Assembly: GCF_023721795.1 (NCBI RefSeq)
Contig: NZ_JAMQYE010000001.1
Location: forward strand, 2,108,001 to 2,172,000
DNA: 64,000 nucleotides
Source of the DNA: Zeimonas sediminis
Lineage (GTDB): Bacteria; Pseudomonadota; Gammaproteobacteria; Burkholderiales; Burkholderiaceae_E
Direction of reading: 5' to 3'
Shown: positions 3,199-5,556 of the stretch, in pieces
Position numbering within the stretch: the first letter of the stretch is position 1
Layout: each line of letters begins with the position of its first letter
Notes under the pieces: generated by a model
Seen by the model: only the letters and a program-made list of their open reading frames with translations
Told to the model about the DNA's origin: nothing
Databases searched by the model: none
Translations under genes and position numbers: made by a program

Positions 3199-3597
3199 AT
3201 GGAAGCCCACACGACCACGCTGCCCGAAGGGCGGATGCCGGTGCTTCGCGTCGTGCCGATGCCTGCCGACGCGAACGTGCACGGCGACGTGTTCGGCGGC
3301 TGGATCATGTCTCAGGTCGACATCGCCGGCTCGCTGCCCGCGGTGCGCCGGGCCAACGGCCGGGTCGCCACCGTGGCGGTCAATTCCTTCGTGTTCAAGC
3401 AGCCGGTCTTCGTCGGCGACCTGCTCAGCTTCTACGCCGAGGTGGTCAAGGTGGGCCGCACCTCGGTCACCGTCTTCGTCGAGGTCTACGCGCAGCGCAA
3501 CCGGCTGGTCGACGAGGTGGTCAAGGTGACCGAGGCCACGCTCACCTACGTGGCCACCGACGAGGACCGCCAGCCGCGTCCGCTGCCGCCGGCCTGA
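3199..3597 (+). CDS. yciA: YciA-type acyl-CoA thioesterase
   Basis: A 132-residue hotdog-fold protein that hydrolyses acyl-CoA thioesters in the cytoplasm. The family marks are visible: VVPMPADANVHGDVFGGWIM near the N-terminus, which holds the Asn and catalytic Asp region, and a core of FVFKQPVFVGDLLSFYAEV. Its length equals that of YciA enzymes. The ATG at 3199 places MEAHTTTLPEG before the domain. A TATTCT hexamer at 3161-3166 is a plausible -10 box. It converges on the dehalogenase-like gene with only 13 bases between the stops. Confidence 0.9.
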   Translation: MEAHTTTLPEGRMPVLRVVPMPADANVHGDVFGGWIMSQVDIAGSLPAVRRANGRVATVAVNSFVFKQPVFVGDLLSFYAEVVKVGRTSVTVFVEVYAQRNRLVDEVVKVTEATLTYVATDEDRQPRPLPPA

Positions 3598-3610: not shown

Positions 3611-4297
3611 TCAGCTGACCCAGCCGCCCGCGAACGGGAAGCTCTGGCCGGCGAAGAAGTTCACCTCGGAGCTCGCCAGGAAGACCGCGAACAGCGCGTC
3701 CTCGCGCGCGGTGGCCAGCCGCCCGGCCGGCACCTCGCGCCTGAGCCGCTCCTGGAAGGCCGGCATCGCCTGCACCTCGGGCCCGTAGTACATCGGGTTC
3801 TCGACGAAGTTCTGCGCGATCAGGTTGACCTGCACGTTGCTCGCCGCCACCTCGGCGCCCACCGCGCGCACGTAGGAGACCTGCGCGCCGCGCGCCGCCG
3901 CATAGGTCGACGTGCGCTTCTGGCCGCGCAGCGCGGTCGCGCTGCCCATCACCACGATCTTTCCCTCGCGCCGTTCGAGCATCCCGGGCAGCACCGCGCG
4001 GAACAGCCGCGGCAACGGGTCGACCATGTTCGCGAACACGTGGCGCCACTCTTCGTCGCCGACCTCGTGCGCGCGGGTCGACGGCGCCGGCACGCCGAGG
4101 TTCGCGATCAGCACGTCGACCCGCCCCGCCGCCTCGACCGCTTGCCGGGCCGCCGCGGGCGCGGCGAGCGAGCCCTCGTGCGCGACGACCGTCGCGCCGT
4201 GCTCGCGAAAGGCCTCGACCAGAACCGGCCCCATGAATTCCGCGGCCTGGGTGACCAGCACCCGCTTGCCGGCCAGGCTGTCCCCGATCCTCGCCAT
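3611..4297 (-). CDS. Halohydrin dehalogenase-like protein (SDR-related)
   Basis: A 228-residue Rossmann-fold protein that an automatic search would probably call an SDR oxidoreductase. Two positions argue otherwise. The glycine-rich cofactor loop is replaced by Thr16-x4-Phe21-x-Gly23 (TQAAEFMG), and the catalytic set is Ser119-x12-Tyr132-x3-Arg136 (YAAAR), with Arg in place of the SDR Lys. Both patterns are the published diagnostic motifs of halohydrin dehalogenases, which eliminate halide from vicinal haloalcohols to give epoxides and do not use NAD(P)H. The segment NFVENPMYYGPEV before the C-terminal third and the ending AGGWVS also fit that family. Length is typical. The natural substrate is unknown. 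Confidence 0.8.
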   Translation of the reverse strand: MARIGDSLAGKRVLVTQAAEFMGPVLVEAFREHGATVVAHEGSLAAPAAARQAVEAAGRVDVLIANLGVPAPSTRAHEVGDEEWRHVFANMVDPLPRLFRAVLPGMLERREGKIVVMGSATALRGQKRTSTYAAARGAQVSYVRAVGAEVAASNVQVNLIAQNFVENPMYYGPEVQAMPAFQERLRREVPAGRLATAREDALFAVFLASSEVNFFAGQSFPFAGGWVS

Positions 4298-4473
4298 CGC
4301 GCTCTCCTCGCTTCCCTCGATCGGGCGATTATCGCGCCCTATAACCGCGCAGGGGAGCGAGAATCGGTGCCGCAGCGTTCCACTGCGGCTAGAATCCGCG
4401 CGCCGCGGACGCCCCGCGGGCCGCCGGGCGGCCCGTAAGTTCGTCCCGCGAAAGCCGAACAGGCAGACTGATC

Positions 4474-5556
4474 ATGACAATCGTCCTATTCATCGCCGGG
4501 CTGGTCCTGCTGGTCGCGGGCGCCGAGCTGCTGGTCCGCGGAGCCTCCAGGCTGGCCGCGGCCTTCGGCATGTCGCCGCTCGTGATCGGACTGACCGTGG
4601 TCGCGTTCGGGACCAGCGCGCCGGAGATCGCGATCTCGGTCGGCGCGTCGCTGAACGGCCAGACCGACGTCGCGGTGGGCAACGTGGTCGGCAGCAACAT
4701 CTTCAACGTGCTGTTCATCCTGGGCGCCTCGGCGCTGATCGTGCCGCTGGCCGTCGCGCGGCAGGTGATCCGGCAGGAGGTCCCGGTGATGATCGGCGCT
4801 TCGCTGCTGCTGCTGGCGCTGATCCTCGACGGATCGCTCGATCGGCTCGACGGCACGCTTCTGACGCTCTTGGTCTTCGCCTACCTGGCTTTCCTGGTGG
4901 TGCAGTCCCGCCGCGAAGCTCAGGCGGCCGCCGACCGCGCGGTCCGGGGGGCGGCGCCGGAGCGGAAGGCGCAGGCCGCCGGCCTGCCGCTGCAGGTCGC
5001 GCTGATCGTGGGCGGCCTGGTCGCGCTGGTCTTCGGCGCGCGGATGCTGGTGGAGGCGGCAGTGGACTTCGCCCGCGCGCTCGGGGTCAGCGAGCTGGTC
5101 ATAGGCCTGACGATCGTCGCGGCCGGCACCTCGCTGCCCGAGGTCGCCGCCTCGATCACCGCGGCGCTGCGCGGCGAGCGCGACATGGCGGTCGGCAACG
5201 TGGTCGGCAGCAACATCCTGAACATCCTCGCCTGCCTGGGCCTGGCCTCGCTGGTGTCGCCGGCGCCGCTGGCGATCGCGCCGTCGGTGCTGAACTTCGA
5301 CATCTGGGTGATGCTGGCCGCGGCGCTGGCCTGCCTGCCGGTGCTGGTCACCGGCCGCGAGATCGCCCGTTGGGAAGGGGCGATCCTGGTCGGCTACTAT
5401 CTGGCCTACGCCGCCTACCTGATCCTCGCGGCCCAGCAGCATGACGCGCTCGCCGCCTTCTCGGACATCATGCTGTCCTTCGCGATCCCCCTCACGATCG
5501 TGACCCTCGTGGCGCTGGCGGTCCGCCCCGGCGCCACCCGGAGCCTTCGCCGATGA
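4474..5556 (+). CDS. Calcium/sodium exchanger (CaCA family, YrbG-like)
   Basis: A 360-residue integral membrane protein predicted to exchange Ca2+ for Na+ or H+. It contains the two inverted alpha repeats of the family, GLTVVAFGTSAPE near residue 40 and GLTIVAAGTSLPE near 211, each followed by AVGNVVGSNI, which form the ion pathway. About ten hydrophobic segments are visible. The stop overlaps the mrpA ATG by four bases (5553-5556), so it is probably the first gene of the Mrp operon. A TAGAAT hexamer at 4390-4395 and a TATAAC at 4340-4345 lie in the 176-base gap to the divergent gene; which one is used is not clear. Confidence 0.9.
   Translation: MTIVLFIAGLVLLVAGAELLVRGASRLAAAFGMSPLVIGLTVVAFGTSAPEIAISVGASLNGQTDVAVGNVVGSNIFNVLFILGASALIVPLAVARQVIRQEVPVMIGASLLLLALILDGSLDRLDGTLLTLLVFAYLAFLVVQSRREAQAAADRAVRGAAPERKAQAAGLPLQVALIVGGLVALVFGARMLVEAAVDFARALGVSELVIGLTIVAAGTSLPEVAASITAALRGERDMAVGNVVGSNILNILACLGLASLVSPAPLAIAPSVLNFDIWVMLAAALACLPVLVTGREIARWEGAILVGYYLAYAAYLILAAQQHDALAAFSDIMLSFAIPLTIVTLVALAVRPGATRSLRR

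Follow-up and report, generated by a model that had tools for sequence, protein, structure and literature searches.

The question raised by a short gene within a 64,000-nucleotide stretch of DNA from Zeimonas sediminis (here called the window) is whether its product is one more NAD(P)-dependent SDR, as its family matches would have it, or a halohydrin dehalogenase (HHDH). HHDHs convert halogenated alcohols into epoxides without a cofactor and are of value in biocatalysis as a route to chiral alcohols and epoxides. The first-pass annotation, made from the sequence alone, had favored an HHDH because of two motifs in the translation. Based on comparisons of sequence and a modeled structure, we consider it very probable that the gene encodes a cofactor-independent HHDH of the B/D branch, which would belong to subtype D by sequence identity. 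The features of the locus are collected in Table 1.

Table 1 Features of the HHDH gene and its direct neighbors in the window.
Feature	Position	Strand	Basis and remarks
YciA-like acyl-CoA thioesterase, convergent neighbor	3205..3597	+	PF03061; NF007970 below cut-off; functional link to HHDH not shown
HHDH gene, D-type (by identity)	3611..4297	-	Complete ORF, ATG to stop (stop included), 228 aa
C-terminal AGGWVS (223-228)	3614..3631	-	Translation
Q162 and NFVENPMYYGPEV (163-175)	3773..3814	-	Expected nucleophile-pocket wall and following loop; alignment
HHDH motif 2, S119-x12-Y132-x3-R136 (catalytic triad)	3890..3943	-	Translation and alignment
HHDH motif 1, T16-x4-F21-x-G23	4229..4252	-	Translation; predicted nucleophile/halide pocket, replaces SDR glycine loop
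Likely RBS, GAGGAG	4304..4309	-	Read from sequence; 6 bases before ATG; function inferred
Calcium/sodium antiporter, divergent neighbor	4474..5556	+	TIGR00367 above cut-off, PF01699; functional link to HHDH not shown

Motifs, fold and closest solved relatives

Translation of the open reading frame placed Thr16, Phe21 and Gly23 as well as Ser119, Tyr132 and Arg136 exactly where the first-pass annotation had seen a T-x4-F-x-G and an S-x12-Y-x3-R motif, and the two accompanying stretches, NFVENPMYYGPEV and AGGWVS, were likewise recovered. In alignments, motif 1 corresponded to T7/F12/G14 of HheC and T14/Y19/G21 of HheB, and motif 2 to S132/Y145/R149 and S118/Y131/R135, respectively. The Q162-N163-F164-V165 turn aligned with P175-N176-Y177-L178 of HheC and Q161-H162-W163-T164 of HheB, so that the equivalents of the HheC halide site in the window protein are F21, Q162, N163, F164, and V165. 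Across 13 relatives, neither the motif 2 residues nor G224, G225, and W226 of AGGWVS changed. A promoter/terminator scan found neither element.

In Pfam, the protein matched only adh_short_C2 and adh_short, and no NCBIfam model scored above its cut-off. We compared its motifs with those of 12 SDR controls, a sample of the SDRs that included five from the genome of the window and left out L014, a fragment of an HHDH homolog. S-x10-14-Y-x3-K was present in all 12 controls and TG-x3-G/A-x-G in 11 of them, and none of the 12 carried either HHDH motif. The window protein does not have this classical SDR signature of TG-x3-G/A-x-G loop and S-Y-K. Because both HHDH motifs were retained in all 80 best relatives listed from a one-genome-per-species collection and were lacking in the 12 controls, their co-occurrence is more than chance. 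The description of HHDHs as a small family did not hold, as at least 80 close homologs carry both motifs; the family is known and widespread in environmental Proteobacteria.

A sequence search of the PDB returned HheD2 (7b73, 274 bits), HheD8 (8xxb, 267 bits), and HheB (4zd6, 202 bits), followed by a steep drop to 98 bits for 6a41, a dehalogenase, and 89 bits for the best FabG. The four best matches were all HHDHs, and ranks 1-5 were occupied by HHDHs or a named dehalogenase; 7b73 is named as halohydrin dehalogenase HheD2 in the literature (PMC9629495, PMC5892878). The closest solved relatives are thus HheD2, HheD8, and HheB and not NAD(P)-dependent SDRs, which bears out the first-pass reading. 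Nor did the finding that would have spoken against that reading, closest relatives that are all NAD(P)-dependent SDRs with a Rossmann loop, emerge: the glycine loop was seen in none of the close relatives listed.

The structure prediction that had been proposed as a further check gave a concordant picture. An AlphaFold2 monomer model, calculated from 13 homologs, reached a mean pLDDT of 87.7 and a pTM of 0.88; residues 121-125 and 224-228 were modeled less reliably, at low confidence. When the model was used for a fold search, ranks 1-9 were all HHDHs (HheD2, HheD8 with chloride, HheB; E 3e-29 to 6e-22), and FabG with NADP followed from rank 10 (E 1e-16), weaker by at least five orders of magnitude. 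The N-terminus of the model is arranged as beta1-alpha-beta2-alpha-beta4, so that the portion of the cofactor domain with beta3 is missing. According to the alignment, the segment between beta2 and beta4, which carries beta3 in SDRs, is shortened in the same way in HheD2, HheD8, and HheB. As judged from sequence, model, and alignment, the glycine loop and the beta3 segment were absent, and a nucleophile pocket may take the place of a dinucleotide site. FabG-type SDRs share fold and ancestry with the window protein but have the glycine loop and the Lys, bind NADP, and scored far lower against it.

Subtype and placement in the tree

The window protein was 57% identical to HheD2 over the whole chain, 59% to the HheD8 mutant chain, and 50% to HheB, compared with 27-32% to HheA, HheC, and 6a41. 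Newly listed D-types share 57-95% identity with verified D-types, and identity between HHDH subtypes is below 30% (PMC4989007), a value that the 50% to HheB exceeds. Because 57-59% falls within this D-type range, subtype D is the formal answer; against the two solved D-types the assignment sits at the lower edge of the range, and the protein may also be described as lying at the D/B border.

In a tree of 36 rows, whose bootstrap had not fully settled so that support values are rough, the window protein fell into a 13-row clade (97/93) beside, not inside, the main D clade. The latter, with HheD2 and HheD8, was separate (100/100). HheB joined the side of the tree on which the window protein lies (95/90), on a long branch and with the alternative placement not rejected (AU p 0.21); the window clade is thus possibly nearer to HheB than to the main D clade. 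Among the matches listed, those from Thauera and Dechloromonas that fall outside the window clade were 63-66% identical to the window protein. None of the solved enzymes in the PDB belongs to the 13-row clade, and substrate and rate are consequently extrapolated from the nearest solved HHDHs, which are ~57-59% identical. An HHDH-like protein from another genome (L033:9677-10342, G053) is 39% identical, carries both motifs with Tyr in motif 1, and belongs to neither the B nor the D types in the tree but to a deeper lineage.

Comparison with the solved enzymes showed both shared and distinguishing residues. The gammaproteobacterial HheD2 resembles the window protein in both motifs, in length, and in the missing beta3 segment, and is its best fold match, but differs from the window clade at conserved positions of the main D clade, which has, for example, M for Q126, A for L159, F for Y171, and C for F214. 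HheD8 has the same motifs and was solved as a chloride complex; its PDB chain is an engineered triple mutant (A69F/M124P/R127G), and the window protein has Q126 at the M124 position. HheB from Corynebacterium sp. N-1074 agrees with the window clade and not with the main D clade in Q126, F206, A208, F214, and F222, but has Y19 in motif 1 where the window protein has F21, and its long branch makes its placement not firm. HheA, HheC, and the 6a41 dehalogenase have the same two motifs but a longer N-terminal half. Position 126, M in the main D clade and Q in HheB, was mutated in both 5b12 (an HheB variant) and 8xxb, and Y171, which is F in the main D clade and in HheB, aligned with Tyr187 of HheC. 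Tentatively, these patterns may point to a Burkholderiales-centred HHDH clade that is distinct from the main D clade, possibly sister to the B-types, and that carries distinctive residues near the active site (Q126, L159, Y171, F214), which perhaps give it a substrate range or selectivity of its own; we regard this as possible but doubtful.

Genomic context and distribution

Beyond its direct neighbors, the gene lies near an ABC transporter gene and an Mrp-type antiporter operon (names from reading the sequences). This arrangement was shared only with Zeimonas arvi, whose ortholog (on NZ_VDUY01000001.1) is 89% identical to the window protein. In two further genomes of the genus (G015, locus L127, and G012, locus L129), the thioesterase gene adjoins the calcium/sodium antiporter gene with gaps of ~106 and 18 bases, respectively, and without an HHDH gene in between. 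The locus is therefore conserved except for the HHDH gene, a single gene that is present in some genomes and absent from others. Of the 18 genomes in the genus, two carried it, as did about half of those sampled from other genera of the family. Between Z. sediminis and Z. arvi, dN was 0.062 and dS 0.40 (NG86), and the ratio of 0.16 indicates purifying selection and thus a protein that is maintained.

Among 68 dereplicated relatives, adjacent genes on the same strand were heterogeneous, except within small sets of closely related sequences, one of them a leucine-cluster group, and neither a conserved operon with the HHDH gene nor a conserved dehalogenation context was present. We found no dehalogenation genes beside the window HHDH, and the genome lacked EHN-family epoxide hydrolases, the one such family searched, so that a haloalcohol pathway is not visible. 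We infer from this pattern that the gene is a stand-alone one, which fits either horizontal movement or frequent loss.

Several relatives had noteworthy surroundings of their own. At four loci (L058, L067, L069, L107), D-type HHDH genes adjoin an HMG-CoA-lyase-like gene (names from reading the sequences), with the HHDH at ~6.0-6.7 kb in L058, L069, and L107 and at 2.9-3.5 kb in L067; 3-methylcrotonyl-CoA-carboxylase-like and enoyl-CoA-hydratase-like genes lie upstream, resembling a leucine-degradation cluster. At two others (L032:9622-11207, L052:5986-7487), an alpha/beta-hydrolase gene (PF00561) directly follows the HHDH gene and overlaps it, possibly encoding an epoxide hydrolase partner; the L032 locus also has a MetE-like gene (PF01717) immediately upstream. 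One locus (L034:9927-10160, G030) has only a C-terminal HHDH piece of 78 residues, which is probably either what remains of a gene or the result of a break in the assembly.

Proposed mechanism and natural role

In HHDHs, Ser and Tyr hold the substrate hydroxyl, Arg lowers the pKa of Tyr, Tyr deprotonates the hydroxyl, and the resulting alkoxide expels the vicinal halide into the motif 1 pocket (PMC4989007, PMC11976700). All residues of this mechanism are present in the window protein. By analogy with HheC, HheB, and HheD2, Arg136 would lower the pKa of Tyr132, which would deprotonate the hydroxyl group of the substrate while Ser119 holds it. The oxygen would then attack the neighboring carbon and expel the halide into a pocket presumably lined by motif 1 (Thr16, Phe21, Gly23) and the Q162-N163-F164-V165 turn. 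Release of the epoxide would follow, and the reverse reaction may proceed with halide, azide, cyanide or nitrite. Sequence and fold establish the family and the active-site residues; catalytic activity, substrate, a homotetrameric state, and natural role are putative for the window HHDH. A mining study based on the HHDH motifs led to 19 representative candidates with confirmed activity (PMC4989007).

The natural role of HHDHs is assumed to be the detoxification and degradation of haloalcohols (PMC11536340). Because conserved partner genes are lacking, the window enzyme would most likely act on its own in the cell, detoxifying or scavenging small haloalcohols or epoxides; the locus itself neither confirms nor contradicts a role in detoxification.

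Among the alternatives, the one that survives best keeps the HHDH fold and motifs and assigns them a natural reaction other than the dehalogenation of xenobiotic haloalcohols, for instance on an epoxide or beta-substituted alcohol of normal metabolism, with halide activity as a side activity of a halide-like pocket. The missing dehalogenation context among the 68 relatives and the D-type genes within the leucine-degradation-like clusters are in line with such a reaction, and a 2016 review left other physiological functions open (PMC4989007). Yet only a few related sequences lie in such a leucine cluster, the window locus not being one of them, and verified D-types do dehalogenate haloalcohols (PMC4989007), so that we consider this reading unlikely, if still worth weighing. 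A reading as an ordinary NAD(P)-dependent SDR whose glycine loop has degenerated, which the SDR-only matches in Pfam and NCBIfam would allow, is hardly credible, given that TGxxxGxG and the beta3 segment are missing, that Arg stands where YxxxK has Lys, that all 12 control SDRs look different, and that the nearest solved relatives are all HHDHs. Equally improbable is a decaying, non-functional copy: the patchy occurrence in the genus and the C-terminal piece in L034 would suit decay, but the intact reading frame, the complete set of catalytic residues, and the dN/dS ratio argue against it.

An HHDH thus remains the preferred reading. Among the common D-type genes, a solitary position is the rule and partners in dehalogenation are lacking, so that their natural function is still debatable; the window gene, as one instance, does not settle it. 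The gene is an ordinary further member of the known HHDH family, for which the motif-based reading provides a better name than the label SDR, the only one available from Pfam and NCBIfam.
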